From a virus, in the IMG/VR virus record IMGVR_UViG_3300043395_002794, positions 1 through 25,529 of that record: 25,529 nt of DNA; one strand, given 5' to 3'. The translations under genes and the position numbers were made by a program. Shown piece by piece: positions 10,991 to 24,593 of this stretch. The notes under the pieces were generated by a model. The model was not told the DNA's origin, searched no databases, and worked only from the letters and a program-made list of their open reading frames with translations. Position 1 is the stretch's first letter. Each line of letters begins with the position of its first letter.

Positions 10991-12217
10991 CTAGGCACTA
11001 AGCGAGACGTTCGCGTTCCAACCCGGTGCGTTAGTACGCAACTGGTAGTAAGCGCCGACTCTAACTTCGCCCGCATCCGCATTCGCCACGCGGAGCATTT
11101 CAAGCCCATCGCCGTAGCGAAGGATTTGAGGCGCGTCCCCAAGGCACTCAAGCGCCCACGTGTCCATCTGCAAGAGATAGGCAGTTTGCGGCTGACAGTT
11201 ACGGTCCGGGAATACTTCGATTTGGCTATTAGCTCCGTTTACCAAGATACCGCGAAACGCGATATTGGCAGGTCCTTTAGCATCGATGTATTGCACTTTA
11301 GCCCCGAGCGCTTTTTCAAGCGCGCTGTAAGAGGCAAAGTTGGTGATGCACTTATTGGGCTTGCCACCTTCTCGGGCGAGAAGAGAGCTAGCGTCAATGA
11401 GCGCTTCTTCGATAGATTGCGTAGAGCCGTTATAGCGAACGCCCGCAAGACGGGTCGTATCGACCGAGCGGTCAACGCCGAAGAAGTTATCACCGGAGCT
11501 AGGCGCCGTCGCCGGCAGCCAGCCCGCAAGACCTTTTGGTTTAAGGTTAAGGTCACCTTGAACCAATAGGTAATCGCCAGAAGTCCAGCCAGACGGAGAT
11601 CCCGCCGCGCCGCCCATCGCCGTCGCCGATACGGTAACCGTACCAGACGAGCGATTAACCGCAACGACATAGCCCAAAGCCGCTCGAGGCGTTCCGCCAT
11701 CGGTGGCATTAGCCTGAAGCACTTGGTTAATTTCAAACTGAACCACATCGTTCGGATTCGACAGCGTAATTACGCCCGAAGAAACCGAGCCAGAAATTTG
11801 GCCGATGGAGCCCGTTCCCGTTCTAAAGATGGCCGAAGAGATAGAAAGCGTGATCGAACGAATCGCTCCGTCAATCACAAGCTTTGCACCCTCAAGAAAC
11901 GCCATCTTATCGGTACGCGAGGCAAGCATCGTTTGGTTGTCGATGGTCGCAATCGAGTAGTCGCTTGCCCGAGTGAGCAAGAAGCTTTCGATTTGTACCG
12001 GGGATTGATTACCCTGGGCATTGCTAAAGGTCGAAGAACGACCTTGCGAAACGCCGGTGATAATCGGGATGGGTTTATACTTACCGCCGAAGTCAGTATT
12101 TTTCTTCAGCATGGCAAGAAACGGGTTATCCGCATAAACAAGGTTCTCTACGACCTGTCCGTCGTAAAGCTCCTTAAGAGCTGCGTTCATCGCAGCAAGG
12201 TCTAGGTAAGACGACAT
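10991..12217 (-). CDS. Major capsid protein (408 aa)
   Basis: Length, position after portal and scaffold, and sequence features fit an HK97-fold major capsid protein. The N-terminal arm (MNAALKELYDGQVVENLVYADNPFLAMLKK) is a common start of this class. A long helix with RTDKMAFLEGAKLVIDGAIRS follows at about residues 100-125. A beta-rich Ser/Thr/Gly insertion occupies about 130-225, and the C-terminal part contains QIEVFPDRNCQPQTAYLLQ and LRYGDGLEMLRV. The insertion may be an accessory surface domain. The start is firm, with AGGAG eight bases upstream. It is the last gene before a strong terminator, consistent with high expression. The family assignment is by pattern. Confidence 0.8.
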   Translation of the reverse strand: MSSYLDLAAMNAALKELYDGQVVENLVYADNPFLAMLKKNTDFGGKYKPIPIITGVSQGRSSTFSNAQGNQSPVQIESFLLTRASDYSIATIDNQTMLASRTDKMAFLEGAKLVIDGAIRSITLSISSAIFRTGTGSIGQISGSVSSGVITLSNPNDVVQFEINQVLQANATDGGTPRAALGYVVAVNRSSGTVTVSATAMGGAAGSPSGWTSGDYLLVQGDLNLKPKGLAGWLPATAPSSGDNFFGVDRSVDTTRLAGVRYNGSTQSIEEALIDASSLLAREGGKPNKCITNFASYSALEKALGAKVQYIDAKGPANIAFRGILVNGANSQIEVFPDRNCQPQTAYLLQMDTWALECLGDAPQILRYGDGLEMLRVANADAGEVRVGAYYQLRTNAPGWNANVSLSA

Positions 12218-13448: not shown

Positions 13449-15335
13449 TTATTGAATTTGCGCATTAGGGACGTTGGGCACCATTTCAGAGACGGGAGGC
13501 GCCATCGGATTTGCTTGTGGGGCCGCTTCCATTCCCGGCATTGCGGCTGGGGCGGCCGGCGGCATCGATTGCGAAACGAGTAAGTCTAATTGGTCGCTGA
13601 AACGCCTTAAGAGGTCAAGCTTTTCTTCTTCTAACCCGCTGCATTTTCCGCGGGCATAGTATTCAAGGCACAGCTCTTTAGCTAGCGGCAGATCATCATA
13701 AGGCTCAGGCGCTGTATAAACGCCGTCTTCAATCATCTTTTCAAATATTTCGTTTAAGTAGTCCTCTTCCGCATTAGCTAAATCCTCTACCGCCTCAAGG
13801 TCCGGGAAGTCTAAGAGCTTTCTGCCGGTTCTTGGGCTCATAAGGCCAGCTTGCATATACTCGGTAATCGTTTGAAGTCTTCCCTCTGGCGTTTGCGGGA
13901 GCGAGCTTACCGGGTAGGCCTTCATCACGTACTCATCGTTTTCAAGATCAATGTCTTTCCAGTCGATAGTCTGGATAAACTTTTTACCGGGCACATTAAC
14001 CGTGTACTCGCCCTCTTCTTCATAGATTTCTTTGGCCGTGTCGATTGACAGCTTGGCCAGCTCTAAGAAATAATTTTCATAGGCGTGTCCAATCGTCATA
14101 AAGCGGTCTGATTCAATGTCGTTGTACTCGCGCAGTGCTTTACCGGAATTTAAACCAGCCGGCTTTTCACTAGCGGCAGAAAGCTGGCTAACTCCCAGCT
14201 CGGCAAACGCCGTATCAATGAGGGTCTGAAGATGAGTGTAAATCTCAGGCGGGACAATCGGGGGGACGAGGTAGTGCGGTTCGGTTCCCGTGTAATTCAC
14301 AATTGCACCGATGTCGTTATTCAAGTGTTCTTTGACGATTTTAGAGCCGTTCTCAAGGAAGATTTTGAAGCTTCCCGCGAGATGATAGCTGCGCTGAATG
14401 ACCCACAAAAGCTTATTGATCTCAAGCTGGATATTTTGAATCTGCTCCGCCGCACCCTGGCCCCAAAAGCCGTACAGTCTTCTATTCCAGTCGAATCGTG
14501 CGAACGGGAAGTAGTCCTTCTTCCACGGCTCACTCATTAAAACAGCGTTCTCTACACTTAAAACGTGCCGTCCATCTTTCGCATCCGGCCCACTGGGTAA
14601 ATGCCAGCTTTCGCGAATTGTGACCACGTCCGAAATATTTTGGTAAGAGCCCGTCTGGTCCGCATTAGCCGAATTGGTTTCCTTAAGCTTTCCCTTTTTA
14701 CCTGGGAAAAGGTCGATAAGAAGGTCTCGGTCAATGGTTTTGACGCGGTGGAGGCTTCTTGGGTTGCCGTAGAAGCCCTCGACTTCGTCAACGAATAGCT
14801 CACCCGCGAGGACTCTTTCATGCTTAACCCGTCCATGCTCCGCGTATACATGAGTAAGTCCCGTCCCAAATACTGCCCCGTCCCGAAAGATGATTGGTCC
14901 GTTTTCGTATGCCTTATTCTCATAAAGAATCCCATCCACCCACTTATCTAGCTTTTTCGCCTTTTGCTGCATTTTGTAATCGCCGCCCGACGTGAGGAAC
15001 ATCGGCCTCGGCTTATTCTTTGCGATCTTTGAGACAATCGTGTCAATCGCCGCCTGGATGACGTTGTAGGTAATCCGGTCCCTAACTTGATTTTGCACAG
15101 CAGTAACGCGGCTATAAGAAAGCCCGTTAAGCCCCATGATAGAAAGGTTCCCATATAGCCTCGCCGACATTAAAAGCTGCGTTTGACGCGCGCCTTGATG
15201 CTCGTAAAGAAAGTTAACTATCTTGGCTATTGTCGCCGGGAGGTCATCTTCCCTAACCAGCCACCAGCGGTTATTCGCCGAGCCTGGCGTTGTGACAGGT
15301 CCATTAGCCGAAAAATTCGTATAGTCCATGGGCAT
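13449..15335 (-). CDS. Portal protein (628 aa)
   Basis: The protein fits the podovirus-type portal that forms the dodecameric DNA channel and docks terminase. An N-terminal helical segment (IAKIVNFLYEHQGARQTQLL) leads to RITYNVIQAAIDTIVSKIAKNKPRP, a typical portal clip/wing start. The middle has FGTGLTHVYAEHGRV and LEINKLLWVIQRSYHLAG, and the crown region includes SGKALREYNDIESDRF. The C-terminal 30 residues are Pro/Ala/Met-rich and probably disordered. GAGGGA lies six bases before the first ATG, although a second ATG two codons later is possible. The gene lies two genes after TerL and ahead of scaffold and capsid, the usual order. Confidence 0.85.
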   Translation of the reverse strand: MPMDYTNFSANGPVTTPGSANNRWWLVREDDLPATIAKIVNFLYEHQGARQTQLLMSARLYGNLSIMGLNGLSYSRVTAVQNQVRDRITYNVIQAAIDTIVSKIAKNKPRPMFLTSGGDYKMQQKAKKLDKWVDGILYENKAYENGPIIFRDGAVFGTGLTHVYAEHGRVKHERVLAGELFVDEVEGFYGNPRSLHRVKTIDRDLLIDLFPGKKGKLKETNSANADQTGSYQNISDVVTIRESWHLPSGPDAKDGRHVLSVENAVLMSEPWKKDYFPFARFDWNRRLYGFWGQGAAEQIQNIQLEINKLLWVIQRSYHLAGSFKIFLENGSKIVKEHLNNDIGAIVNYTGTEPHYLVPPIVPPEIYTHLQTLIDTAFAELGVSQLSAASEKPAGLNSGKALREYNDIESDRFMTIGHAYENYFLELAKLSIDTAKEIYEEEGEYTVNVPGKKFIQTIDWKDIDLENDEYVMKAYPVSSLPQTPEGRLQTITEYMQAGLMSPRTGRKLLDFPDLEAVEDLANAEEDYLNEIFEKMIEDGVYTAPEPYDDLPLAKELCLEYYARGKCSGLEEEKLDLLRRFSDQLDLLVSQSMPPAAPAAMPGMEAAPQANPMAPPVSEMVPNVPNAQIQ

Positions 15336-15338
15336 GGG

Positions 15339-15635
15339 TTATCCCTCTTTGGGTATAAACTTGATGGGGCTAGAGTAGCCGAGCATCTCCTCGTCACTTG
15401 GCATTTGATCTTTTAGCTCTGGCGCAGGCTGCGCTACTTGGGGCTGTGGCGTATCTTTGAATTCTACCTCAAACTCGGCACATTTGTAACGGCGAACTCC
15501 CATAACTCCCAGGGCCCTAATGGTACTTAAAGCGCCGGGGCTTGTTTGCATAACAAAACTTCTGTCATAGCGGCACTTAGTACAAAATTCCCCGTTAAAG
15601 TTATGCTCTCCAGGAAAGCAAACATCACCGTTCAT
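15339..15635 (-). CDS. Small Cys/His-rich protein between TerL and portal (98 aa)
   Basis: The N-terminal 25 residues contain C-x4-H-x6-C-x2-C (C6, H11, C18, C21), a likely zinc-binding knuckle, followed by a further Cys near residue 52 and a Pro/Gln-rich acidic tail. The start is the ATG at 15635, which overlaps the TerL stop as ATGA and has AAGGGG five bases upstream; an earlier in-frame start would add six residues without its own ribosome site. Translational coupling to TerL suggests a packaging or head-assembly accessory role. No named family was recognised. Confidence 0.6.
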   Translation of the reverse strand: MNGDVCFPGEHNFNGEFCTKCRYDRSFVMQTSPGALSTIRALGVMGVRRYKCAEFEVEFKDTPQPQVAQPAPELKDQMPSDEEMLGYSSPIKFIPKEG

Positions 15636-17884
15636 CCAAACCCCTTTTCCCACGGGTCGGTTTCTTCCCGCGTGTCTTCAAACCTTTTAAGCGCGGCCTC
15701 TTCCATTTGCTTAACTTCCCTGGCAAACCACTCGGGAGTATTTGGATGGACCGCGGGCGGCGGCGCTTCCCAGAGCCAGTGGTACGCTTCCCGGAAAGCA
15801 TAGAGAACTGCGTCGCAGATATCTGAGTGGTAGCTATCAAGTATGCGTGGCACCCCGTACGGTGCGTCCCGGTCCCATTGCACGAGCATACAATCTTGAG
15901 CAAACCGAGAGTTCTTTTTTGCATAAAATCTCTTTGTGCGCATAGCATCGTTTAAAAGCTCAATAAATTCAAACTTTCTTACCTTCTCCGCGGCAATTAT
16001 TGGTAACCCGTATCGTCTTTGGATTTCTTCGGCGATCTTTTTCCCAAGTCCGCCGGTATCCATGACGATCCGGTCTGGGTTATAAGTATGAACGACCCTT
16101 TCGATTTCCTTAGCCAGGTCCGTAATTCCTTGCTTAGTTTTAATAGATTCTTCGACGAGCCAGGCGACTTGTGCATTTTGATGCCACCCAATGACCGCAA
16201 TTGCGTCGGCGTCCTCGTACCCCAAATCAACGCCCACCACGTAGGTCCAATTCGTTTCCTCTGGGATGGCTTCATAATCGTTTATCCCTTCGTTATAACG
16301 AAAAACAAGCGCGTTATCGTCTTTACTCCAAACCCCGAAGCACTCTCTTTGAATCGCCGGGTCATCAACACTAACGCCTTTACGCTCTAATTCTCTTTGC
16401 AGGATTTGCTGGTGCGTTTGGCCGGACTTTTTGGGGAGCCAGGGGTTATCGAACATCGTCCAGTGGTGGTGGCTCCACTGGTCACTACGTGCACAGTCGT
16501 AGAAATACCCAACCGGCACCGGCCCAGGAGTACCAATAAGGCGCAAGCGGCCAGCGTAGTCAAAGAGGCGCTTTGCAATAACTTCATCCACGAGTTCTCG
16601 AATATAGTCGCGAAACAATTGGCAATTGTGTACAAGCGCGCCATTTACACTAAAGCTCGGGTGGTTAAGAACTGTGAGATCGTAGAAAAACTCTTCTGCG
16701 GCCTTTGCATCACCTGGCTGTTTGTAATCCTCAATACTCTCCAGCCTAAAATAGCCAGCCTCAATCCCTTCTTTCGGTCCTGCGCCTTTCTCGTCACTAG
16801 GTTGTGACTCAGGCCGTCCACTTCTATCGCTAGCTTGTTCTGCACGTCCGCAAGGTCCACCTTGTAGTTGGTCGGAAACCCCTTCGGCCTTGGCCTTCCA
16901 AGAGAAATCGCATGGTTCCATTTCAATTGCGGAAACTCTTTCAATATGATTTTCTCTGGCTCTGTCGGCCCCGTCCCATTGCCCATTCGAGATACCGGCT
17001 TCCATCCCATCGCCTTTAGCGAATTCGAAACCTTGCGCCTCACCTCTTCTTTTTTCATCGGGTTGGGCAAGCGCCGCCTTTCGAACTTCCCGAAGCAGCT
17101 CGCACTGCAAAAACGATAGCGCCTCCAGTGCTTTCGACTGAAGGGCATCCCGCAAAATTCGCATTGAAAATGACTGACGTGCAAGTAAATCCCCCGGCCT
17201 TAAATCCTTGGCAAACACCCAGCCGCGCGCTGTAAAAAATGGGTGCCTATCAGAGCAAATAACCTTCCCATTATTGAATTCTAAACTCTTGCTCTTTGCA
17301 ACTTTCTTTTTGGAGACTTTAGTGACCGTATCCACGCCCCACGCGTTAAGCACCTTATCTCCTTTACGAATGTCAGAAATCCTTTTTTTGCCGCTAGGAG
17401 TATCAACAAGGGTATCCCCACTAAAGCACTCATCGATGTAACAAAGCGCCAAAGCGATACCGCGAAACTTTTCAATTTCCGTTTTATCTTTCGCACCCGA
17501 GACATAAACGACACTATCGTTGGAAAGTTTAATGTAAAGTTCCGTCTCATTGACCTTGCCCCCTAACTGAAACTCTCTGTTTATTCTAACAAGCTCGGGC
17601 CAGATGATGCGCTTTGCGTTTACCCTTGAGAGCGTAAGGTAAAGCACGTTGCACCCAGGAATTCTTCTTGCTGTCTGAAGTAAGTCTACCGCACACGCAA
17701 TCGTTTTACCCGCCCTTACTGAACATACGGCGGTTGCAAAGTAGCTGGGGTCGTTGATAAGGGCTAGCTGCTTATCAAAGCAGTAGGCTTCAGCGCTGAA
17801 TTGGCTCTGCTTGCTGGTGAGAAACAGGCTCTCCCCCGCCCTCAATAACTCGTTCGCCTCTTGGGTCCATAAGTCGTCGCTCAT
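15632..17884 (-). CDS. terL: Terminase large subunit interrupted by an intein (750 aa precursor)
   Basis: The DNA-packaging motor ATPase and nuclease. Without the intein the protein is 482 residues, a normal TerL length. Seen in order: a Walker A-like SVRAGKT at residues 55-61; Walker B plus catalytic acid in ALCYIDE ending at 152, where the intein (153-420) is inserted; a coupling-type GTP motif at 451-453; and the RNase H-fold nuclease acids D553 (VGVDLGY), D609 (RIVMDT) and D688/D691 (SDICDAV). The Walker A lysine is preceded by Ala-Gly, a tolerated terminase variant. Splicing would join ...YIDE to CQLFRDY.... The first 95 bases overlap the preceding gene in another frame; AGGG lies about ten bases before the ATG. 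Activity should depend on splicing, because the catalytic Glu sits directly next to the insert. Confidence 0.93.
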   Translation of the reverse strand: MSDDLWTQEANELLRAGESLFLTSKQSQFSAEAYCFDKQLALINDPSYFATAVCSVRAGKTIACAVDLLQTARRIPGCNVLYLTLSRVNAKRIIWPELVRINREFQLGGKVNETELYIKLSNDSVVYVSGAKDKTEIEKFRGIALALCYIDECFSGDTLVDTPSGKKRISDIRKGDKVLNAWGVDTVTKVSKKKVAKSKSLEFNNGKVICSDRHPFFTARGWVFAKDLRPGDLLARQSFSMRILRDALQSKALEALSFLQCELLREVRKAALAQPDEKRRGEAQGFEFAKGDGMEAGISNGQWDGADRARENHIERVSAIEMEPCDFSWKAKAEGVSDQLQGGPCGRAEQASDRSGRPESQPSDEKGAGPKEGIEAGYFRLESIEDYKQPGDAKAAEEFFYDLTVLNHPSFSVNGALVHNCQLFRDYIRELVDEVIAKRLFDYAGRLRLIGTPGPVPVGYFYDCARSDQWSHHHWTMFDNPWLPKKSGQTHQQILQRELERKGVSVDDPAIQRECFGVWSKDDNALVFRYNEGINDYEAIPEETNWTYVVGVDLGYEDADAIAVIGWHQNAQVAWLVEESIKTKQGITDLAKEIERVVHTYNPDRIVMDTGGLGKKIAEEIQRRYGLPIIAAEKVRKFEFIELLNDAMRTKRFYAKKNSRFAQDCMLVQWDRDAPYGVPRILDSYHSDICDAVLYAFREAYHWLWEAPPPAVHPNTPEWFAREVKQMEEAALKRFEDTREETDPWEKGFG
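16625..17428 (-). mobile_element. Intein in TerL (268 aa) with out-of-frame endonuclease
   Basis: The insert begins with Cys1 in CFSGDTLVDTPSGKK (block A) and ends at VHN followed by Cys+1. Block B is seen as SDRHPFF (TerL residues 211-217, with Ser in place of the usual Thr and His214 intact). Block F is FYDLTVLNHPSFSVNG (from residue 400). The penultimate His419, Asn420 and Cys421 are intact, so a class 1 splicing mechanism is expected. The splicing domain takes up about the first 85 and last 25-30 residues. The intervening 155 or so residues show no LAGLIDADG or HNH motif in this frame and are hydrophilic, low-complexity and probably disordered. The same DNA encodes an endonuclease in the +1 frame. 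Confidence 0.92.
16645..17184 (-). CDS. Nested EDxHD (Vsr-like) homing endonuclease in the +1 frame (179 aa)
   Basis: This frame lies entirely within the TerL intein and is shifted +1 relative to TerL. The N-terminus has a zinc-finger pattern C8-x2-C11...C26-x3-C30. A nuclease core follows: Glu75/Glu77 in TEPEKII, Asp110 in YKVDLAD, Glu121-x-Asp123 in LAIEVDG, His127, and Asp136, then GWRVLRITN. This matches the EDxHD family of Vsr-fold homing endonucleases known from phages, some of them beside split inteins. It starts at TTG with GGGGGA five bases upstream; the next Met (residue 13) would lose the first two zinc Cys. It starts at intein residue 82 (TerL residue 234), just after the N-terminal splicing blocks, and stops inside block F. 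It probably cuts intein-free terL and so spreads the intein; the target is inferred. Confidence 0.85.
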   Translation of the reverse strand: MHVSHFQCEFCGMPFSRKHWRRYRFCSASCFGKFERRRLPNPMKKEEVRRKVSNSLKAMGWKPVSRMGNGTGPTEPEKIILKEFPQLKWNHAISLGRPRPKGFPTNYKVDLADVQNKLAIEVDGLSHNLVTRKAQDRKKGLRLAILGWRVLRITNSQVMQRPQKSFSTISQFLTTRALV

Positions 17885-21872: not shown

Positions 21873-22582
21873 TGGTGCGGCCCCGTTCTAATGTACTCGT
21901 CAAAGTTTCCGGCGCGCCCGTGGATATAGTCTTGCTTCCATTTATTATAAATCGGGTCATGTGCCTCCGGGCAAAAGGTCTCTCTATAATCCCAAAGGTA
22001 TCCCATCTTTAACCCGTCGGCCTTTGTAAGAGCGTGCATGGAAAGCTCAACGCCGCCATAAAGCCCCGTGAGCGCTTTCATGCCGCCCGTTTTTTTGACT
22101 AAAGAGCCGCGCCACCCGGTTGCGTTAAACATATCTAAATTATCGGGAACCACCACTTTTGGGGACTCAAGCACCGTTTCCCATTTTCTGTTTCCCTCTA
22201 AGTGATCAATCAAAAGGCTTACGCAGCCAAGCGACTTTTCTTTTTGAATGGCCCCTACCATCGCCGCGTCCCACCCCTTATGCATCGGATAGGTATCCGG
22301 GTCATACCCAATCACAATATCGTCGTCTGCAATTTCAAGCTGATTAAAAACCCAGTTAAACCCCTCGTGCCCCCCGATATTTTTAGGGTTTGAAACAAGT
22401 TTGCATCTGTGCCTTTCGCAGATGTCTACTATCGCGCGCACCGTGCCCCAGTAATCAATCGGGTAGTGGTGGTTTAAAATGTAGTGCTCAGTGGGAAGGG
22501 TCGCCGTTTCATAGTAGCGGTTAAGCCCACACTTTAAGACTTCGGCCCTTGCGTGACAGGTCGTTATCGTTACGACTTTCAT
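21869..22582 (-). CDS. GT-A type glycosyltransferase (237 aa)
   Basis: The protein starts with a Rossmann-like strand (MKVVTITTCHARAEVLK) typical of family-2-like glycosyltransferases. It has NPKNIGGHEGFNWVF and the metal-binding DxD motif in IGYDPDTYPM at about residues 92-101, plus an acceptor-side region GWDAAMVGAI. It is expected to move a sugar from a nucleotide-sugar donor, either to host surface glycans or to phage DNA or proteins. It overlaps the upstream GT-B-like gene as ATGA and the downstream small membrane gene likewise. The acceptor is unknown. Confidence 0.75.
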   Translation of the reverse strand: MKVVTITTCHARAEVLKCGLNRYYETATLPTEHYILNHHYPIDYWGTVRAIVDICERHRCKLVSNPKNIGGHEGFNWVFNQLEIADDDIVIGYDPDTYPMHKGWDAAMVGAIQKEKSLGCVSLLIDHLEGNRKWETVLESPKVVVPDNLDMFNATGWRGSLVKKTGGMKALTGLYGGVELSMHALTKADGLKMGYLWDYRETFCPEAHDPIYNKWKQDYIHGRAGNFDEYIRTGPHQ

Positions 22583-23550
22583 ATAATAGCCTCAATTACT
22601 CTTTCTCTTTGCTGGTTTACCCTCTCAATTGAAAGCTCGTCTTTTATGTAGGTCGTCGCCTCAAGCTTTAGGCCCTCAAGCTCGTTTTTTACCCCGTCTT
22701 CAAGTAGCTCTAAAAAGCCTTTTCCAAATCCTTGAATAACCCCAGGTCTGCGAAACTCTGGAAAATCTTGGCTTGCGACCATTACCGCCCCGGCAGCCGT
22801 CGTCTCAATCCAAGAGCAGTTTGATTTACAGATATTAAGCTGCGTTTTTCTTAACGGGAAAATGCTAAGGCGCGGGTTTATCTTTTTAAGCCCGTCGTAG
22901 TAGTCCTTAAAAGGCACGCCGCCTGTCATAATCATATTGTGCTTTACGTGATCGGTAATAAACCAGGGGTCTGCGCCCACAAAAACCCAAGTATACTTTT
23001 TGCCGGCAATAGAGTTTGCGGCCTTTATGATATTTTCTTTTTCTTCGTAAAGGTCTGGAAGATGGCTCCAGCCGCCGCGCCAAACAACGGCCATTTCGCT
23101 CTTTTCTAAAAACTCGCCGTGATACCTTTTATCGTACGCATTTGGAATAATGAAAATTTTGTCGTTAAAGCGGTTATAGCTTCTATAAAGAGCGTTAGTT
23201 GATACGGACACGGCGCTTGCCACCGTCAGACAATAGGCAATGTTCTTTTTGATGTTCAGCGGAAGGTACGCCGGAAAGGCGAGGTTAGTTGTCGGCACAC
23301 TTAAAATATCGTCGTCATAATCCACCCAAAGCGGGATACCAAGCGACTTAACTCTTTCCGCTGTCTTTGCGTGATCATCGTTAAACGGCCTTTGCATAAA
23401 GACCATATCGATAAAAGATAAAGACGCCTGAGAGGCGTTAACGATAAATTCAAGTTTGTACTTATTTCTAAGAAGAGAAAGAGGTCCCGCCGCCCTATAA
23501 AGAGACGTTGGGTCATTAATGTCTGGAACAACGCATCCGATTGTTTTCAT
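22579..23550 (-). CDS. GT-B type glycosyltransferase (323 aa)
   Basis: Two Rossmann-like halves are visible. The first has LWVDYDDDILSVP and SVSTNALYRSYNRF, then IIPNAYD, a typical GT-B hinge segment. The second has AVVWRGGWSHLPDL and YTWVFVGADPWF, then NICKSNCSWIETTAAGAVMVAS, matching the donor-binding 'K-x-x-x-W-x-E-x-x-A-x-G' region of family-4-like enzymes. Length is slightly short but complete. The start overlaps the preceding stop as ATGA. Together with the GT-A enzyme it probably builds a short glycan; the sugars and acceptor cannot be read from the sequence. Confidence 0.75.
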   Translation of the reverse strand: MKTIGCVVPDINDPTSLYRAAGPLSLLRNKYKLEFIVNASQASLSFIDMVFMQRPFNDDHAKTAERVKSLGIPLWVDYDDDILSVPTTNLAFPAYLPLNIKKNIAYCLTVASAVSVSTNALYRSYNRFNDKIFIIPNAYDKRYHGEFLEKSEMAVVWRGGWSHLPDLYEEKENIIKAANSIAGKKYTWVFVGADPWFITDHVKHNMIMTGGVPFKDYYDGLKKINPRLSIFPLRKTQLNICKSNCSWIETTAAGAVMVASQDFPEFRRPGVIQGFGKGFLELLEDGVKNELEGLKLEATTYIKDELSIERVNQQRERVIEAII

Positions 23551-23888: not shown

Positions 23889-24593
23889 ATGAAATACACA
23901 AATAGGCTCTCACTCCCAAAGCGCTTTTTTAACGCAGTAGTAAACGACCCCTATGATAAGGGGGGCGCCGATTTTTCAATTACTGAGCTACTTGACCCGC
24001 CTAAAATTAGGGTTCTTCAAAGAGCGCACGCAGAAGAAATTGAAGAAGACGTTTCCGATTACATTTTTACGATGCTGGGAAAGGGGTTTCACTTAGCCGT
24101 TGAAAATGCGCACTCATCCGGAGTTGCCGAAAAAAGAGAGGAAATCGTTATCGACGGCTTTCGCGTTTCTGGCGCGCCGGACCTATTTGAAGAAGGTTTT
24201 ATTTACGACTGGAAAGTTACCGGCGCTTATAAGGTCATGAAACGCCTTTATGACGACTGGGAAAAGCAGCTAAACGGGTACGCGATGATTTTACGTTCAA
24301 AGTCTCTTCAGGTAAAAGGCCTTCGGGTAATGCCGGTTATTAGAGACTGGAACTTTAGGGACTCTTTTAAAAACGGGTATCCAAAAGCTCCCGCTCTTGT
24401 CGTCGATATTCCGCTATGGGAAGAGGAAAAAGCGGTCCCCTTTTTTAGAGAGCGAATTTCTTTACACATGGCCGCAGAGCGTGGTTTACCAGACTGCACT
24501 GACGAGGAAACGTGGCAGGGAAGGCGCTGCGAAAGATTCTGCTCGGTTAGCCAGTTTTGCGTTCAGTTTCAAAAAAGCAAAAAAGGAGTATAA
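23889..24593 (+). CDS. Cas4-like PD-(D/E)XK exonuclease with four-Cys C-terminus (234 aa)
   Basis: Nuclease motifs in order: His68 in GKGFHLAVE, Asp98 in SGAPDLF, and D107-W-K109 in IYDWKVTG, then a helix with YDDWEKQLNGYAMIL matching the Q-x-x-x-Y element. The C-terminus has four Cys (C203, C214, C218, C224) in PDCTDEETW...RRCERFC, a likely iron-sulfur site as in Cas4/AddB-type nucleases. Length is typical. The gene directly precedes a putative annealing protein, so the pair probably forms a phage recombination system in which the exonuclease makes single strands. No ribosome site precedes the ATG. Confidence 0.75.
   Translation: MKYTNRLSLPKRFFNAVVNDPYDKGGADFSITELLDPPKIRVLQRAHAEEIEEDVSDYIFTMLGKGFHLAVENAHSSGVAEKREEIVIDGFRVSGAPDLFEEGFIYDWKVTGAYKVMKRLYDDWEKQLNGYAMILRSKSLQVKGLRVMPVIRDWNFRDSFKNGYPKAPALVVDIPLWEEEKAVPFFRERISLHMAAERGLPDCTDEETWQGRRCERFCSVSQFCVQFQKSKKGV

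Follow-up and report, generated by a model that had tools for sequence, protein, structure and literature searches.

Inteins and homing endonucleases are, in their textbook form, in-frame fusions. An intein whose own frame contains no endonuclease interrupts terL in a 25.5-kb viral contig of IMG/VR (25,529 nucleotides, the window; Table 1). The single 750-residue frame of terL reads through the bases of a nuclease gene, which lies one frame further on. The first-pass annotation had claimed a complete nuclease out of frame inside the TerL intein, and this holds: the nuclease ORF is open at +1 throughout, entirely within the intein coordinates. Elsewhere in the window, the large minus-strand ORFs between positions 158 and 9891 (1019, 511, 382, 988 and 240 amino acids) have no PHROG match.

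Table 1. Features of the window and of its intein-containing terminase gene, in window coordinates.
Feature	Position	Strand	Remarks
Major head, weak match	10991-12217		
Portal	13449-15335		
terL, terminase large subunit with in-frame intein	15632..17884	-	750-aa precursor; phrog_2, 4e-33; TIGR01547
Continuous class-1-type intein	16625..17428	-	268 aa, CFSGD...LVHN; between YIDE (Walker B) and C+1
Intein N-terminal Hint half, residues 1-84	17177..17428	-	pLDDT >95 in most blocks; own N-block profile 1e-26
Intein-frame linker, residues 85-225	16754..17176	-	predicted helix to ~120, then disordered (pLDDT <50)
Intein C-terminal Hint half, residues 226-268	16625..16753	-	overlaps nuclease ORF 3' end; C-block profile 3e-14
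Nested +1-frame EDxHD/DUF559 zinc-finger nuclease gene (predicted)	16645..17184	-	TTG start at 17184; 179 aa + stop, 540 bases
Shine-Dalgarno-like GGGGGA	17190..17195	-	upstream of TTG 17184; duplex energy -8.6
Zinc-finger cysteines C8, C11, C26, C30	17095..17163	-	nearly invariant in 55 homologues
Putative catalytic D110, E121, D123, H127, D136	16777..16857	-	all invariant among homologues
Glycosyltransferase	22579-23550		
Exonuclease	23889-24593		

TerL profiles match on either side of the insertion, which falls exactly after the YIDE of the Walker B motif (YIDE/C, the slash marking the insertion point). The inserted segment displays Cys1, the block-B His62, a terminal His267-Asn268 pair, an extein Cys+1 and a predicted Hint fold, and the Pfam profile Intein_splicing (PF14890) matches the intein alone (E=8e-9). 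A profile search for an endonuclease family in the intein's own frame found none; both halves of the earlier statement, that the intein keeps its splicing residues and lacks an endonuclease in its own frame, are thus seen in the residues and in the profile search. In the AlphaFold2 model of the intein frame, both Hint halves are predicted with confidence, while the linker between them lies largely below pLDDT 50; the closest fold to this model is that of the gp41-1 intein (6qaz, TM 0.82). Taken together, residues and fold point to a continuous intein that is likely to splice autocatalytically.

With its start 244 bases inside the intein and its stop 20 bases short of the intein's end, the nuclease ORF overlaps the C-terminal Hint half as well as the linker. 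When compared with EDxHD/Vsr families, a check proposed in the first-pass annotation, the +1 frame displays clear homology to DUF559/EDxHD nucleases, matching DUF559 (PF04480, 4e-10) and MTES_1575 (1e-8). PF04480 is found in 60/60 members of the nuclease family, whose profile also matches 3hrl (1e-11) and the homing endonuclease I-Bth0305I (3r3p, 3e-5), the alignment to 3r3p beginning after D110 and having no equivalents of D123 and H127. DUF559 has been placed within the EDxHD group (PMC9403480). The AlphaFold2 model of the nuclease frame, obtained from a 55-sequence alignment, reaches a pLDDT of 93 on average; the alignments used for structure prediction contained no rows taken from annotated phage records. 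In a Foldseek search, the top PDB fold for this model was the catalytic domain of I-Bth0305I (TM 0.68 over the target), with a modest E-value (1.5e-3) and a probability of 1.00, and the sequence evidence agrees. Judged by its homology to I-Bth0305I, the product of the +1 frame is a predicted homing-type endonuclease of the EDxHD/DUF559 kind. Thus, of the two products predicted from these bases, the nuclease is an ordered enzyme, and the intein-frame segment is a mostly disordered linker whose sequence is imposed by the nuclease frame.

The explanation that best accommodates these observations, and that we regard as highly probable, is a dual-coding mobile intein with an independently translated EDxHD-type homing endonuclease at +1. 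It is read from the sequence: from the two frames, the homology, the fold predictions, the signs of dual selection, the recurrence of the arrangement and the existence of empty sites. The TerL message would be translated straight through into one precursor, in which the two Hint halves would assemble into one fold, the disordered linker between them being dispensable, and excise themselves to leave intact TerL. The bases of the linker would also serve as a second gene, that of a free-standing nuclease translated from its own internal start, in the window the TTG behind GGGGGA. In alleles of the target gene that lack the intein, this nuclease would cut at the Walker B codons, and the intein and the nuclease would be copied together into the cut allele during repair.

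The arrangement is not confined to the window. Loci were gathered by searches with the nuclease, with intein N-blocks and with TerL; some contigs were met more than once, and most loci are metagenomic. Among 222 nuclease-bearing loci (122 nuclease clusters at 90% identity), a continuous intein with a nuclease at exactly +1 is present in 213 loci and 117 clusters; the remaining nine comprise five cut by a contig end, two that are split (L053/L267) and two with the nuclease in frame (L235/L236). The offset of the nested nuclease is always +1. Over a hundred related viral sequences therefore keep the two-layer layout, which looks widespread. The products of the host genes include SF2, SNF2 and UvrD helicases, DnaX-like clamp loaders and terminases, and probably also DinG-type helicases, a label that comes from reading the sequence; in nearly all of them the insertion point is DE/C of Walker B/motif II, and the arrangement goes with this site in P-loop NTPases. 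Cultured carriers include the Vibrio phages CP-T1, 159E43-1b, 104E43.1, 1.088.O and 1.194.O, Corynebacterium phage phi673 and Pseudomonas phage MR14. All seven of these records annotate the host gene as a single CDS, under names such as helicase or hypothetical protein, and none annotates the +1 nuclease.

Had relatives been found in which the +1 frame is full of stops while the intein linker is conserved, the first-pass annotation would have considered its proposal refuted. When the intein N-block alone served as seed, in a search blind to the nuclease and limited to the closest clade (L177-L219), all 42 untruncated inteins carried an intact +1 nuclease and none a degraded one. Most of the more distant inteins have no +1 nuclease, and several are mini-inteins. 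The split relative occupies one contig (L053, the same as L267): its intein N-half stops right after the Hint block and is followed by the nuclease ORF, its C-half ORF begins inside the 3' end of the nuclease, and the intein frame between the halves is full of stops. The two in-frame loci (4001-5170 in L235/L236) form one cluster and have the conventional arrangement, in which the continuous intein is fused in its own frame to a nuclease of this superfamily. A divergent nested case (L223, 3986-5353) has a +1 ORF of ~398 codons, in which the nuclease domain is preceded by about six CxxC repeats that resemble zinc fingers.

How the nested frame would be translated was approached through its start sites. 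In the window the start is a TTG with an imperfect Shine-Dalgarno (SD) signal, and some other loci have no obvious start. One test ATG per locus was taken, that nearest the first zinc finger, picked without regard to SD signals, and an SD was called strong at <=-7 kcal/mol. By this measure, strong signals precede 41% of the test ATGs (56 loci), as against 5% of 687 control ATGs (p=2e-5); for the first ATG of the host gene itself the share is 25%. Examples of signal and start are AAAGGAGGTCCAATTATG in L006 and GAGGAGGAAAAAATATATG in L003; in the former, the SD signal with the start behind it reads AAAGGAGG...ATG. The enrichment over control ATGs favours internal initiation of the nuclease. Under a stricter null, in which only synonymous intein codons were reshuffled, SD strength was not significant (combined p=0.08), so that selection for SD signals is supported, not proven. 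The main rival to internal initiation is programmed ribosomal frameshifting, by which the nuclease would be made as a fusion to the TerL N-extein and the N-half of the intein. It would account for the constant +1 offset and for the nuclease frame often opening before the end of the N-block, yet the nuclease starts are placed differently in each lineage and their SD signals are far above those of control ATGs, and we hold it to be unlikely. Internal initiation therefore appears to be the more plausible route.

Whether each frame is under selection was assessed from the constraints that the two frames place on each other. A nuclease codon ending in T before AA, AG or GA creates a stop in the intein frame; at such sites T was found in none of 1113 pyrimidine-ending nuclease codons of 70 representatives, as against 59% elsewhere. 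All 70 representatives have an open intein frame, whereas 0.08 would be expected from shuffled synonymous nuclease codons, the representatives being related by descent, so that joint probabilities are not to be taken literally. The third frame is open in 0/70. The split relative L053 offers a natural control, as its intein frame, once released, closes directly behind the N-half and is full of stops from there on. The rhythm of substitutions among related loci changes in the overlap: in the flanks, position 3 of the host/intein codons is the most variable (0.43-0.55), and within the overlap it is position 3 of the nuclease codons (0.34 versus 0.16 and 0.19). Over the same bases, identity is higher in the nuclease frame than in the intein frame in 827/827 pairs, the window and its nearest relative (L008) sharing 53% and 29%, respectively. 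These patterns indicate that both the intein frame and the nuclease frame are under selection. The distance correlation between intein and nuclease is weak (Mantel test of co-inheritance, p=0.07), and constant joint inheritance is accordingly not claimed.

These constraints bear on a second rival, according to which the intein frame is non-functional and the segment is either removed otherwise, as a group I intron, or lies in a gene that is really split. The disorder of the linker in the model and the existence of the split relative L053 would agree with it, but the intein lacks none of the splice residues, has both of its Hint halves and keeps an open frame in every representative, so that this rival seems very improbable. 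A group I intron at the insertion is ruled out, since a search for its RNA core in 16400-17650 gave no Rfam match at E<=1, and a fractured gene or split intein is ruled out for the window by the continuity of its intein frame. That only the intein matters, the +1 frame being open by chance or in decay, is scarcely credible and already contradicted by the results: the frame does remain open in 0.6% of synonymous shuffles of the window intein, but its homology to known nucleases, the invariance of the putative catalytic residues, the pLDDT of 93, the switch of substitution rhythm in the overlap and the 42 intact nucleases of the intein-seeded search all speak against it. The same shuffles reveal that the probability of ~0.0002 earlier given for the open frame was overstated, and the openness of one single case is weak evidence. 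The accompanying claim that chance is excluded is nevertheless borne out, because of the homology and not because of bare openness.

Under the dual-coding interpretation, alleles that lack the element would be its targets. Related TerL genes that are up to 67% identical in the C-extein contain no intein and present the empty site YIDE/CQSF or similar, and the occupied TerL cases found are the window, L008 and L170. The pattern of presence and absence and the nuclease family fit homing. Homology and this patchy distribution suggest that the protein acts as a mobility nuclease, and it may cleave empty alleles specifically.

The components of this system have known counterparts. In conventional large inteins the nuclease also sits between the Hint N and C halves; both activities there reside on one polypeptide, a form that was found here only in L235/L236. 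I-Bth0305I, an EDxHD homing endonuclease of a group I intron, shares the catalytic fold, as the profile and structure matches indicate, but is intron-encoded, whereas the window nuclease is nested in an intein; their N-terminal DNA-binding parts also differ. The 'fractured genes' of Dassa et al. in 2009 reportedly contain split inteins whose halves enclose a free-standing nuclease, and EDxHD nucleases are said to be among these. They resemble the present loci in affecting phage-type genes and in having intein halves that flank a separately translated nuclease, and L053 is of this form; the difference is that in the window and in 117 clusters one continuous intein chain is overlapped by the nuclease. 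Among 50 gp41-1-type split intein loci (L098-L147), the EDxHD-type nuclease profile found no match; in L098, the two intein halves flank a GIY-YIG-like ORF.

Out-of-frame HNH nucleases have been described in phage methylases, as the ShiLan domain and the Pacc40 insertion, for which no intein or intron was found and the insertion was supposed to stay in the methylase; no ribosome-binding site was detected, and how the nuclease is translated was left open by the authors (PMC11855218, 2025). The likeness is considerable, with a phage insertion open in the host frame, a homing-type nuclease in a second frame and a patchy distribution, but the nucleases there are HNH enzymes without splicing, whereas here they are of the EDxHD type, with an intein in the host frame and SD-like starts common. 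A hidden insertion of the ShiLan type is ruled out for the window by its DUF559/EDxHD nuclease and by the intein splicing domain in the host frame. The literature searched, which did not cover the 2009 fractured-gene paper, yielded no out-of-frame nuclease inside an intein. Known parts thus seem to be combined in a new and common dual-coding arrangement that is apparently undescribed; an earlier report of overlapping cases, by Dassa in 2009 or in other work, would lower its novelty, not its truth.

More tentatively, and with somewhat less than even confidence, dual-coding inteins that carry an EDxHD nuclease at +1 may be widespread elements that spread among the Walker B motifs of P-loop NTPases and bridge continuous inteins to fractured genes. 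If so, with the nuclease translated independently, a stop in the linker would yield a natural split intein with mobility kept, as L053 suggests; natural split inteins are heavily used as tools, and a way in which they could arise step by step is thereby suggested. The two genes share bases in different frames, stably across >100 viral lineages, and so give a clear, long-lived example of overlapping genes on the same strand in which dual selection is testable; internal SD signals suggest a ready mechanism for the translation of 'hidden' nucleases. Annotation overlooks these nucleases, as in the seven cultured-phage records inspected. Some host genes carry further inteins: helicase genes contain three Hint-like inserts in L046 and two in L010, and the TerL of L173 is interrupted at a second site, on the C-terminal side of Walker B, by a short intein without a nuclease.
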